Shown here: positions 16,500-57,613 of the stretch, one piece after another
Position numbering within the stretch: the first letter of the stretch is position 1
How the letters are laid out: the number at the start of each line of letters is the position of its first letter
Source: Turicibacter sanguinis
GTDB taxonomy: Bacteria; Bacillota_I; Bacilli_A; MOL361; Turicibacteraceae
Reading direction: 5' to 3'
Assembly (NCBI RefSeq): GCF_013046825.1
Contig: NZ_CP053187.1
Span: 124,001 to 188,000, forward strand
DNA: 64,000 bases
Translations under genes and position numbers: made by a program
The notes under the pieces: generated by a model
What the model was told of the DNA's origin: nothing
What the model saw: the letters and a program-made list of their open reading frames with translations, nothing else
The model's database searches: none

Positions 16500-16603
16500 G
16501 CACCTCCTTAAAATTTAACTAAGACTCGCCATCAAAGGCATATGAAGTTTCATATTTGAAACCTTGTCCGAGCGGTTGTAGTACCCTAAGGTGCTAACAA
16601 CAT
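16500..16603 (-). ncRNA. L21 leader (cis-regulatory, rplU 5' UTR)
   Basis: The ~100-nt transcribed leader between promoter and rplU has a hairpin (GAAACTTCATATGCC region) and an upstream conserved-looking single-stranded tract (ACAACCGCTCGGACAAGG on the minus strand). Its position and this CGCTCGGAC element suggest the L21_leader family, which is thought to provide feedback on this operon. The family assignment is from memory. Confidence 0.55.
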
Positions 16604-28671: not shown

Positions 28672-28930
28672 AAAAAAGCACTCCGTCCTATAAAAGGACG
28701 AAATGCTTAAAATTCCGCGGTACCACCTTAATTGTAAGTTTATACTTACCACTTATGCTTTAACGCAGCAAACGGAATTTCTTACTAACTTCTCTATTCA
28801 GAAACTCAACTCGCAGGCTACCTTCAAAGTCTTCACATAGAGTTCTTTCAGCACATGAACTCCTCTCTAAAATGTAAAAATACTTTTACTCCTCCTGGTC
28901 ACGGTTATTACCTATCATGCTATATATGTT
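28672..28930 (-). ncRNA. T-box leader of valS
   Basis: On the minus strand the conserved T-box sequence AAGGTGGTACCGCGG is at 28716-28730, followed by a terminator hairpin (28672-28707) with a run of seven T. Upstream are the Stem I elements (GAGAGGAGTTC, GCTGAAAGA). A GTA triplet at 28819-28821 in the expected loop could be the Val specifier, but I did not fold the RNA. Uncharged tRNA-Val would stabilise the antiterminator and switch valS on. Confidence 0.93.
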
Positions 28931-35170: not shown

Positions 35171-35212
35171 GATGAGCACCTCCAATTTTATAGAACATTC
35201 ATGGAAAAAAAG

Positions 35213-35341
35213 AAAAACGTAGGCATTCAAGCGCCCACGTTTAAAATCACAGTTAAAAAAAACTATGCGACTTTTAAACCTATCGACTTAAGCCAATCAG
35301 GTGAGAAGTGGGTACTTCTTCTTTCCACATGATATTCACAT
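35213..35341 (-). ncRNA. L20 leader / attenuator of infC-rpmI-rplT
   Basis: The transcribed leader from the promoter at 35348-35376 ends in a strong terminator hairpin (35215-35224 / 35233-35242) followed by T-rich sequence, before the infC ribosome-binding site. An L20-type leader is expected here in Firmicutes: L20 binding favours the terminator. Position and terminator support it; I did not fold the L20-binding site. Confidence 0.75.
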
Positions 35342-38545: not shown

Positions 38546-38811
38546 AAAAATCGCTCCTAAAATTTAATTAGGAACGATTATAATCGCGGTACCATCCTAT
38601 TTCCAACAAAGAAAAGACTCTTCGTTAGCAACTCAATTTAACGTTAACGCAGTCAGCGGGAAACTTTTTCAAGTCCAGTTCAAAGGGAGTAATTCAAACA
38701 TCGTACTTAGAAATCTTTCAGCCATGGATTCCCTCTCTAGAAAGTCGTATGAATAAATCATATCCTTATCAAAACCTTTGATATATCAGTCTACTCATTA
38801 GTATATGTATG
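38546..38811 (-). ncRNA. T-box leader of thrS
   Basis: The T-box core AGGATGGTACCGCGA is on the minus strand at 38583-38597. A terminator hairpin (38546-38578) with an eight-T run follows, and Stem I elements (AGAGAGGGAATCC, GGCTGAAAGA) precede it. An ACT triplet at 38688-38690 in the expected loop would be a Thr specifier; this was not folded. Confidence 0.93.
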
Positions 38812-54121: not shown

Positions 54122-54175
54122 TATAAAAAAACTTCTCTACACCAGAAATCAATTCTGAAATTAAAGAAGTTTTTT
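54122..54175. terminator. hairpin terminator-like element
   Basis: An outer stem AAAAAACTTC / GAAGTTTTTT with an inner CAGAA / TTCTG pairing and T tract. It could end transcription past the broken regulator. Between 54176 and 54324 I see nothing coding. Confidence 0.6.
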
Positions 54176-54324
54176 TATTTTATATCATAAACCAATGTCT
54201 AACACTTAGTAACACAGATTTAACTATTATTCATCTTTTTATAGGAAACGAATTACAAATCTTATAAATGATTCATAACTAAAAGTCTAAGTCATAGTAC
54301 TTTGTGATTTAAACACTTGAACCT

Positions 54325-54524
54325 CACACCCCACAGACTCAGTAACTGGACCTCAGTTGAGTTTCGAAGACCAAATGCTCGCCCTACTAGCGATAGAAAA
54401 CCACGAGCTACGCTACGTGGTGTAGGGAAACCATAAAGTTTCGTCTACACTACTCCTAAAAAGCAGAGGAGTGAGGTAGACGTCAACTCACTATACTTCA
54501 TACCCTACAGTCACAGTAACTGGA
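54325..54524. repeat. 26-bp imperfect direct repeats flanking a hairpin-rich insert
   Basis: Positions 54325-54350 and 54499-54524 match at 22 of 26 bases and share CAGTAACTGGA. Between them are a nested hairpin (54382-54387 / 54422-54427 enclosing 54401-54405 / 54416-54420) and a strong second hairpin (54442-54448 / 54476-54482 plus 54452-54457 / 54467-54472). On the minus strand both repeats can be read as the same protein ending (PVT-VG-EV), so they may be the 3' ends of duplicated coding sequence around an inserted structured element. Confidence 0.6.
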
Positions 54525-54727
54525 ATACAATCTATCTTCGATAACCTGACTCTTGAGAGCAAATACATAAGATTCTCTAGATTTCTTTTAGAAATCAGTT
54601 CATCTAAAAAATCGGGAGCATCCCATGTTTCAAAAAGAGAAACACAGGCTACTTCCTTGCATTTTAGAATATCTAGTTGAACTTCTAGTGAAACTTTAGA
54701 TATTCTTATCCCTTTAGGGGGGGTCAA
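54491..54727 (-). CDS. possible remnant protein, unknown
   Basis: A 78-codon minus-strand frame ending in IPVTVTVGYEV. Its DNA is full of small inverted repeats, and the homologous ending at 54325-54350 lies in a frame with a stop, so this is more likely part of a decayed repeat or RNA element than a working gene. No ribosome-binding site stands out before the first ATG. Confidence 0.25.
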   Translation of the reverse strand: MTPPKGIRISKVSLEVQLDILKCKEVACVSLFETWDAPDFLDELISKRNLENLMYLLSRVRLSKIDCIPVTVTVGYEV

Positions 54728-54797
54728 GAGTCAAAGCGGTTATCTCAGCCTTTTAGATATTCTCGCTGAAGTATGAAGCGTTAGACTATCTTATCCT

Positions 54798-54858
54798 GGG
54801 TATTTAATCTTTCTAATCTCGAAAATTCGAGATTTAGAAAGATTTTACTCAGGGTTAC
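54798..54858. other. long palindrome next to polA 3' end
   Basis: An almost perfect 16-bp inverted repeat (centre AAAATT near 54825, one bulged base), extended by a looser outer pairing, gives a ~60-bp hairpin overlapping the polA stop. It lacks a T tract, so it is not a classic terminator, but it may protect the mRNA 3' end. Confidence 0.6.
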
Positions 54859-57491
54859 TTCGCGTCGTACCATGTTGGTCCGTATGAGTAGTCTGCTTTT
54901 AATGGCACCTGAAGCTTTACAACGTCTTCCATTGTTTTAGTTACAAGTTCGATCATTAAATCTAACTCTTCTTGTGGGACTTCGAAGATTAATTCATCGT
55001 GTACTTGAAGTAATAAACGAGATTTAACTTGTTTTTCTTTCATGGCATTTGCGACGTCAATCATGGCTTTTTTGATAATATCGGCTGCTGTTCCCTGGAT
55101 TGGTGCATTCATTGCAGTACGTTCTCCAAACTGACGAAGTGCATAATTTTTCTGACTTAATTCAGGGATATAACGACGACGATTAAATAAAGTCGTTGCA
55201 TAACCATGGAATTTTGCATCTTTCACGGTATCTTCCATATACTGATTGATTCCTGAATAAGTCTCTAAGTAATGATCAATATATTTTTTCGCTTCTTTTT
55301 GCGTAATATTTAAATTTTCAGATAATCCGAAGGCACTCATTCCATAAATAATTCCGAAATTAATTGCCTTAGCTGAACGTCGTAAGTCTGATGTCATTTC
55401 TTCCTCAGATACTTTGAACACATCCATTGCTGTTTTTTTATGAATATCTTCACCTTCTTTAAAGGCTTCGATTAATGACTCCGTATTTGAAATATGAGCT
55501 AAAATACGAAGTTCGATTTGTGAGTAGTCCGCTCCTAAAATAACCCAACCTTCTTCACTTGGGACAAAGGCCTTACGAATTAAACGCCCTTCTTCTAAGC
55601 GAATCGGAATATTTTGTAGGTTGGGTTCAATCGATGATAAACGTCCTGTTTGAGTTAAAGCTTGATTAAAAATCGTATGAACTTTTCCATCACTGTAGCA
55701 TGCTTTCTTTAAACCCTCGATGTAAGTTGAATAAAGTTTGGTTAACGTACGATACTCCATAATCGATTTAATGATTGGATGAGCATCACTTAATTTCTCT
55801 AATACATCGGCATTTGTTGAATATCCTGTTTTCGTTTTCTTAATAACTGGTAAGGATAATTTCTCAAATAACACCTCTCCTAATTGCTTAGGTGAGTTAA
55901 TGTTAAATGACATTCCAGCATGTTCATAAATCTCATTTTCAAGCGCCGTGATGCGTCCTTTTAAATCTTGCCCCATCTCATCAAGTGTCTTTAAATCCAG
56001 AGCCATTCCGTTAAATTCCATCTCAGCCAACACATCTGCCAGTGGCATTTCCATCTCTTCAAATAACGTTAACTGATCTTGTTCTTTCAACTGTTCAAGC
56101 GCTGTCTCCTTTAACTTCAAAACGGCAGTCGCAATATCAATCGAGTGACGGGCAATTTGACTCTCTTCTGCAATAGCACGCTTAGCCCCTTTACCATAAA
56201 CCTCTTCATCGTACAACACATCATCGTAGTCATAACTCATCGCCACTTTTTTAAACTCATTGCTGACATTCGTCGGATTAATAATATACGTTGCGAGTAA
56301 TAAATCAAATGCCACCCCACGTAAATCAAATCCTTGCCACATCAGGGCAACTCGTGAACGTTTTAAATCAAAGATATCTTTTGCAATCTTTTCATCTGCT
56401 AAGAATGCCATAAAGGCCTCAGACTGCTTCGCTAATTCAAATGGGACATAATAAGACTCTTCATCATTTACAACCGCAATCCCTAAAATATTAGCATGAT
56501 GATAGTTCTCTTCAAAAATCTCAACATGAATCGCACTATGCTTAAAGATTTTAGTGTTTAATTCTTCTAAACTTCCGATGATTGCAACAGGAGCTTTAGG
56601 TGTTTCATCCTTCACCTCTTGCAGTTTCATTTTTTTTAGGAAAGCATTAAACTCCATTTCTTTAAACAATTCAATTAAACCCGCTACATCAGGTCCTTGA
56701 TATAATAAATCATCAAAAGTCACTGAAAGCGGCACATCTGTATGAATGGTCGCCATTCGTTTGCAAAGCAAAGCTTGCTCAACATTCGCCTCTACTTTCT
56801 CTTTCATCTTCCCTTTTAAAGAGGCCGTATTAGCGACTAAATTTTCAACTGTTTGATACTCTTTTAATAATTTAATTGCTGTCTTTTCCCCAACACCTGG
56901 GATTCCTGGTAAATTATCTGATGGATCGCCCATTAAACCTTTTAAGTCAACAATTTGGCTTGGTGATAATTCATATTTTTCAAACACCGCTTCTGGTGTA
57001 AACGACTCAATATCGGTAACCCCTTTTCTTGTAATATGAACCGTCGTTTTCTCATCCGCCATTTGAAGTAAATCTTTATCTCCTGTGATAATATGAATTT
57101 TTTCAAAATCGGCTTTCTCTCCAAGACGAGCCAATGTTCCAATAATATCATCTGCTTCATAAGTTGGTAGCTCTAATCGCTTGACACCTAGTAAATCAAG
57201 ATACTTCTTAATTAAATTAATTTGAGAACGCATCTCATCTGGCATCGGCTTACGACCATCTTTATACGTTTCTAAAAATTCATGACGAAATGTCGTTTTA
57301 CCTGCATCAAACGCCACTAGCATATGCGTATGATGATAATCATCCATCACTTTATTCATCATATTAACGAATCCATAAAGAGCATTCGTAAAAATCCCCT
57401 GACTCGTCTTCATTAAATTCCCGCTATATGCCGTTGCATAATATGCGCGATACATTAAACTATTTCCATCAATTAAAACTAATGTGTTCAT
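54855..57491 (-). CDS. polA: DNA polymerase I
   Basis: An 878-aa repair and Okazaki-fragment polymerase. Residues 1-290 are the 5'-3' exonuclease (LIDGNSLMYRAYYA; VAFDAGKTTFRHEF; GDPSDNLPGIPGVGEKTA). Residues ~300-470 are a 3'-5' exonuclease fold in which I do not see the usual Asp/Glu metal ligands, as in Bacillus Pol I. Residues 480-878 are the polymerase with motif A (DYSQIELRILAHIS), motif B (RRSAKAINFGIIYG) and motif C (QVHDELIFEV). The ATG at 57491 has AAGGG upstream. Confidence 0.97.
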   Translation of the reverse strand: MNTLVLIDGNSLMYRAYYATAYSGNLMKTSQGIFTNALYGFVNMMNKVMDDYHHTHMLVAFDAGKTTFRHEFLETYKDGRKPMPDEMRSQINLIKKYLDLLGVKRLELPTYEADDIIGTLARLGEKADFEKIHIITGDKDLLQMADEKTTVHITRKGVTDIESFTPEAVFEKYELSPSQIVDLKGLMGDPSDNLPGIPGVGEKTAIKLLKEYQTVENLVANTASLKGKMKEKVEANVEQALLCKRMATIHTDVPLSVTFDDLLYQGPDVAGLIELFKEMEFNAFLKKMKLQEVKDETPKAPVAIIGSLEELNTKIFKHSAIHVEIFEENYHHANILGIAVVNDEESYYVPFELAKQSEAFMAFLADEKIAKDIFDLKRSRVALMWQGFDLRGVAFDLLLATYIINPTNVSNEFKKVAMSYDYDDVLYDEEVYGKGAKRAIAEESQIARHSIDIATAVLKLKETALEQLKEQDQLTLFEEMEMPLADVLAEMEFNGMALDLKTLDEMGQDLKGRITALENEIYEHAGMSFNINSPKQLGEVLFEKLSLPVIKKTKTGYSTNADVLEKLSDAHPIIKSIMEYRTLTKLYSTYIEGLKKACYSDGKVHTIFNQALTQTGRLSSIEPNLQNIPIRLEEGRLIRKAFVPSEEGWVILGADYSQIELRILAHISNTESLIEAFKEGEDIHKKTAMDVFKVSEEEMTSDLRRSAKAINFGIIYGMSAFGLSENLNITQKEAKKYIDHYLETYSGINQYMEDTVKDAKFHGYATTLFNRRRYIPELSQKNYALRQFGERTAMNAPIQGTAADIIKKAMIDVANAMKEKQVKSRLLLQVHDELIFEVPQEELDLMIELVTKTMEDVVKLQVPLKADYSYGPTWYDAK

Positions 57492-57613
57492 GCTAATCAA
57501 CCCTTATCTTTGGCATATTTGAACGCCTAATTAACTATACTTTAATATTATTTTAACACAATTTATAAACTGATACATATTTAAAACATACTTTTAAAAG
57601 GATGGTGCTAAAA

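Follow-up and report, generated by a model that had tools for sequence, protein, structure and literature searches.

The palindrome-rich stretch that follows polA in Turicibacter sanguinis (54310-54860 of the window, by which we mean the whole 64,000-nucleotide stretch of DNA analyzed) is neither protein-coding nor a unique scar, but represents one copy of a non-coding mosaic built from structured modules, whose family is spread through the Turicibacteraceae. The units represent a real, previously unlisted repeat family that is BOX/REP-like in behavior: it is dispersed, duplicates in tandem, preserves its fold, usually shares the strand of the upstream gene and starts at gene 3' ends. Half of the units are placed at stop codons with nearly single-base precision, and this in a common gut bacterium. 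Their fold is kept while the sequence drifts; bacterial structured repeats are usually recognized through their sequence, and their benefit is disputed. We put at roughly 55% the probability that the units, lying in 3' UTRs, act as RNA at mRNA 3' ends.

The composite element downstream of polA

The palindromic feature starts at the polA stop (54857) and ends at about 54310; like polA, it is read 5' to 3' on the minus strand. All five inverted repeats listed in the original prediction are present where it had placed them; three are given in Table 1, and the others are GAATATCTA..TAGATATTC (54667-54703) and a long hairpin (54798-54858). The direct repeats, which had been described as 26 bp long, exist but span 52 nt at 71% identity, so that the 26 bp correspond to their better-matched core. 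On the minus strand, 54525-54860 folds with -111 kcal/mol vs. -68 ± 5.4 for dinucleotide shuffles (z -7.9), while the fold of 54310-54524 is weaker (z -2.6 vs. dinucleotide shuffles).

Table 1. Features of the polA 3' region in the window, with the basis of each assignment.
Feature	Position	Strand	Basis or remark
polA	54855..57500	-	ORF list; 83% identity with the PolA of Turicibacter sp. UBA7094, which places the window in Turicibacter; orthologues found in four sister species
polA TAA stop	54857-54855	-	first hairpin begins 0 nt after
Type-2 element	54745..54860	-	covariance model R3, 97.9 bits, E 6.6e-15, own genome (copy among those used to build the model)
Type-1 unit (GGCTGAGATAACC..TTGACTCTTGA ... 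TCAAGAGTCAGGTTATCGAAGATAGATT)	54525..54752	-	covariance model R2, 41.3 bits, E 3.6e-9 (search of 1.5 kb, filters off; copy absent from the model-building set)
Type-2-like mini hairpin pair (CCCTAAAGGGATAAGAATATCTAAAG...TAGATATTCTAAAA), nested in type-1 unit	54663..54722	-	GGATAAGAnnTCTAA common to other type-2 copies
Apical hairpin of type-1 unit (TGTTTC..GAAACA)	54627..54645	-	sequence
Hairpin CGTCTAC..GTAGACG	54442..54482	-	sequence, fold
Hairpin module IV (CCCTACACCACGTAGCGTAGCTCGTGGTTTTCTATCGCTAGTAGGG; CCCTAC..CCACG..CGTGG..GTAGGG)	54382..54427	-	five relatives, all in sister genome G002
3' end of type-1 unit (direct repeat, copy 1)	54495..54546	-	repeat comparison, R2 match
3' end of degenerate second unit (direct repeat, copy 2, 71% identical)	54321..54372	-	unit identity inferred
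17-nt inverted repeat, then T run on minus strand	54123..54178	-	likely transcription terminator

The window copy is a composite, with a type-2 element at the stop codon, a type-1 unit carrying a nested mini type-2 pair, and module IV further down. The type-2 element reads TAACCCTG-hairpin-CAGGATAAG, then AGATAGTCTAA-hairpin-ATCTAAAAGGCTGA, and overlaps the start of the type-1 unit, which is enlarged through inserted hairpins and has GATAACC/GGTTATC and GACTCTTGA/TCAAGAGTC as its outer stems. The nested pair includes the GAATATCTA/TAGATATTC repeat, and the apical hairpin resembles that of one unit type in the array L154. Relatives of module IV were found in G002 (L177, twice; L131/L178; L031; L140/L179; G000 denotes the genome of the window, and G001, G002 and G004 are sister Turicibacter genomes), where the module often accompanies type-1 units; its inner stem covaries (CCACG/CGTGG, CCAAG/CTTGG, CTACG/CGTAG). 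No firm relatives were found for the hairpin at 54442..54482.

The predicted terminator below these modules (Table 1) would place the elements inside the polA 3' UTR. The segment 53554-53933 of the window holds a degraded response-regulator-like fragment, between an ABC transporter gene and the polA 3' region, and elsewhere in the window Rfam models match two T-box leaders and the L20 and L21 ribosomal protein leaders (28691-28911, 38567-38781, 35205-35329, 16512-16587). The comparison of the polA flank that had been suggested as a check showed four sister species to lack the element, their genes ending with TAA or TAG; relatives do not have a single-copy coding sequence, which would have spoken against the original prediction.

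A family of folded repeats in Turicibacter and related genera

The search for further copies that the original prediction had called for was productive: BLAST against the window's own genome returned copies of 54745-54857 at three other loci, reading the matched places revealed a longer unit, and a second search yielded more copies. Type-1 units are about 118 nt long, begin with GGCTGA and close with GAAGCTAGATT, following the layout AAGGCTGA-stem-CGnTTA-stem-CGTAnAA-stem-variable hairpin-stem-ATAG-stem-TG-stem-GAAGCTAGATT. Between the ends AAGGCTGA and GAAGCTAGATT, unit lengths range from 111 to 181 nt. Type-2 units (TAACCCTG-hairpin-CAGGATAAG-AGATnnTCTAA-hairpin-TTAGAnnATCTAA) are mostly joined to type-1 units. 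Tandem arrays reach up to eight units, with two unit types alternating. Immediately behind a T-box leader, a type-2-like unit was noticed in opposite orientation (L228, G000:C1:2004411-2004513).

Covariance searches gave 49 type-1 matches in the window's genome and 11, 6, 1 and 5 in four other Turicibacter species. The type-1 model also produced weak matches in a second genus, and a model rebuilt on all copies added a third, so that copies occur in every Turicibacter tested and in two related genera. Type 2 was seen in the window's genome only (about 12 firm copies, 17 counting weak ones). Among 395 genomes of the class, convincing matches were confined to Turicibacter and the related genera; those in G074 and G175 do not lie at gene ends and were judged to be due to chance. 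No unit copies were found in phages, plasmids or IMG/VR, no paper on such repeats in Turicibacter was found in the literature, and no Rfam 15 family scored above its gathering cut-off for the units; the family adds an RNA family missing from Rfam. A separate dispersed family of 51-bp tandem repeats (CTAGGGCTTGGGTCACCTAGCGATTTCTGAAAGAAATCTAATCCTCAACTG) exists in another Turicibacter species, G001 (L054:2180-2640 and other loci), and in L167 a stretch resembling it comes after a type-1 unit.

Folding with a covariation check, likewise proposed beforehand, indicates that the paired stems change in step and hence that the fold itself is preserved. Across 78 aligned type-1 copies, 91.2% of helix cells are paired, two-sided (compensatory) changes occur at 20 of 21 pairs, and the covariation score reaches 0.606 vs. 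0.178 ± 0.010 in shuffled alignments; sliding the partners by 1-3 columns lowers it to 0.119 or less. For type 2 the score is 0.463 vs. 0.148 shuffled, with compensatory changes at 24 of 30 pairs. These alignments were fitted to the model, which favors structure, and a single genome does not yield fully independent copies; the same pattern is nonetheless seen in MAFFT alignments that predate any model. Among imperfect pairs (62 clusters), G-T outnumbers A-C (53 vs. 25) and G-A outnumbers C-T (51 vs. 9), i.e., those tolerated are those of the sense strand, a bias aided by the model's own tolerance of G-U. The type-1 ends pair as GCT/AGC (3 bp), followed by tandem G-A pairs. Hammerhead cores require G8-A9, which is not conserved in the units, and such a core was therefore rejected for their CTGA..GAA motif.

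Copies at the same locus in species pairs also carry compensatory changes (ahpC, ricT, purB, purL, an rbsR-like gene, tRNA-Glu). In the closest of these pairs (68-84% identity), eight changed pairs are broken vs. six that are doubly compensated, and same-locus units of low identity may have arrived separately instead of descending from one ancestral copy.

Two of the ideas originally put forward thus hold in part: the region is a palindromic repeat element without genes of its own, with copies dispersed in the genome, and its secondary structure is conserved and covaries strongly. The idea of a mobile-element scar within a duplicated gene, with both direct repeats encoding the same protein C-terminus, has to be abandoned. 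Although a gene remnant could appeal to the 71% identity of the repeats and to a 78-aa frame across 54491-54727, this frame has no Pfam match, open frames are at the level of shuffles (34 vs. 38 ± 5.6), unit lengths are not multiples of three and cover all residues modulo 3, and the changes track base pairing, a pattern that already contradicts this explanation and leaves it practically no credence. We infer instead that each repeat is the conserved 3' end of a structured unit, the two units following one another.

Placement at gene ends and host genes

Half of the leading units (23/46) start within -6 to +8 nt of a same-strand stop codon, counted on same-strand open frames of at least 150 codons and with orthologous loci included, so that the events are not fully independent; of random non-ORF positions at the same loci, 1.9% fall in this range. 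The commonest distance from the stop is 0-5 nt. Junctions usually read TAA|AAGGCTGA or TAATATAA|AAGGCTGA, or else a TGA belonging to the element acts as the stop, and type-2 units start on the stop TAA in the window (polA ...AAG TAA CCCTGAG) and after oleate hydratase. The upstream gene lies on the same strand in 35 of 44 arrays. About a fifth of the arrays are antisense or unrelated to the upstream gene (e.g., the pst locus L117 and purE, L166), so that not all of them can have a sense role in a 3' UTR. Units also occur directly 3' of tRNA-Glu and tRNA-Val, within a tRNA operon.

Strong hairpins right at stop codons would suit transcription terminators or attenuators of the upstream gene. This reading is improbable, as the GC stem followed by a T-run that defines intrinsic terminators is not found: the units end with GATTGAATATAAAAG and similar sequences, no T-run follows them, a consensus scan gave no terminator at the type-2 hairpin, the inverted repeat with a T-run at 54123..54178 is a separate one further down, and units lie within a tRNA operon as well. 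Integron attC sites, which act as folded single strands after gene stops, share with the units a kept structure with free sequence, constant ends and placement just after stop codons. The R boxes of attC sites (RYYYAAC/GTTRRRY) are, judged by eye, absent from the unit ends, and the host genes are housekeeping genes in ordinary context rather than cassettes, which makes recombination sites of this type very improbable.

The host genes comprise polA, nrdD, tdk, a deoxynucleoside kinase, a dUTPase-like gene, purL, purB and pyrR, as well as ricT, ahpC, yebC, a YabN-type methylase, a YeeE-like transporter, oleate hydratase and presumably murF, which was assigned by reading its sequence, without a profile match. 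Units are found at the same gene in two or three species for purL, purB, ahpC, ricT and the rbsR-like gene. The first eight genes named, all of DNA synthesis or nucleotide metabolism, make up 8 of the 15 identified hosts in the window's genome, a raw share that looks striking. It is tempting, if rather doubtful, to see here cis-acting RNAs of a new class that would be physically coupled to the terminating ribosome at gene 3' ends and co-regulate nucleotide supply. The nrdD gene (L154 and L118 in G000, L172 in G004) appears split by an intervening sequence that encodes a GIY-YIG endonuclease in G000 and has a type-1 unit inside; Rfam reported no group I intron in it.

The main rival to a role as RNA is selfish non-autonomous mobile DNA, the hairpin of the folded single strand being the mobile form on which a transposase or rolling-circle (HUH) nuclease acts, without host function; gene ends would then be hit because insertions there are least harmful. 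We regard this as possible, though not probable. It would account for dispersed and tandem copies with constant ends, for the polA flanks that lack the element in sister species, and for the tRNA-Val unit missing from G004, where the tRNA-Val/Gln spacer is 10 nt long and that of G001 is filled; moreover, folding of single-stranded DNA would leave the same covariation as folding of RNA. A lead toward a mobilizer is that in G001, G004 and G002 the one rolling-circle Rep gene (PF23343; PHROG replication initiation) belonging to a small recombinase/S24/SSB island has a type-1 unit at its 3' end. However, G000, the genome richest in copies, is without such a Rep (a sub-threshold match lies beside SpoIIM and FUR genes), the Y1 transposase and reverse transcriptase loci of the sister genomes are not flanked by units, the unit ends are not inverted repeats beyond 3 bp, and general tolerance of gene ends leaves the placement 0-5 nt from the stop unexplained. 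A link to reverse transcriptases or IS200-like copies was rejected on account of the missing flanking units, the one exception being a unit about 1.1 kb from a reverse transcriptase. As regards a target-site duplication, the unit flanks show short similar stretches (e.g., GAGT at L157, ACAC at L156), with no filled/empty pair that has clean boundaries. The island itself (L253:3082-9984, L255:6740-13747) is integrated, and holds two large serine recombinases, an S24 repressor, an SSB and the Rep (PHROG 3584), whose gene was found in three Turicibacter genomes.

Proposed role and comparison with known repeats

As RNA in the 3' UTR, the units would probably control termination and/or the stability of the 3' end. 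A terminating ribosome would run into a helix that starts at the stop codon, and such a helix could also form a barrier to 3'-to-5' exonucleases. A unit would thereby reduce or buffer the translation of its host gene and/or determine mRNA stability. Copies multiply through tandem duplication and are also dispersed to other gene ends. For E. coli, an earlier study cited in PMC12306157 reportedly found that REPs lying within 15 nt of the stop codon stall ribosomes and reduce translation, and BOX elements in 3' extensions of transcripts have been proposed to hinder 3'-5' exonucleases (PMC3049150). The exact placement at the stop would fit ribosome stalling, and the tRNA-flanking units would fit a block to exonucleases better. 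Since the fold is kept and the units lie at stops, action on translation termination vs. passenger status is directly testable.

Like the pneumococcal RUP, other MITEs and Correia elements, the units are small non-autonomous intergenic repeats, but they are without long terminal inverted repeats, type 1 having only the 3 bp GCT/AGC and tandem G-A pairs at its ends. With the REP/BIME elements of E. coli and REP-RAYT systems (PMC12306157, PMC3733652), they share extragenic hairpins, many of them near stop codons (within 15 nt, as in the 23 of 46 leading units). REPs, in contrast, are palindromes of 20-40 bp with terminal GTAG or CGTC tags and a RAYT; the units, about 118 nt long, lack such tags at their ends. 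A RAYT system was ruled out, as G000 has no Y1 transposase (PF01797) and the Y1 copies examined in sister genomes have no units nearby. The BOX elements of Streptococcus pneumoniae are likewise modular, dispersed non-coding stem-loop repeats with a tandemly expandable unit; some form 3' extensions of operon transcripts, and their mobilizer is not established either (PMC3049150). Their modules differ, and the units described here keep their fold with free sequence and abut stop codons. The family thus fails the defining tests of REP-RAYT systems and MITEs, but in its behavior it is of the BOX/REP kind.
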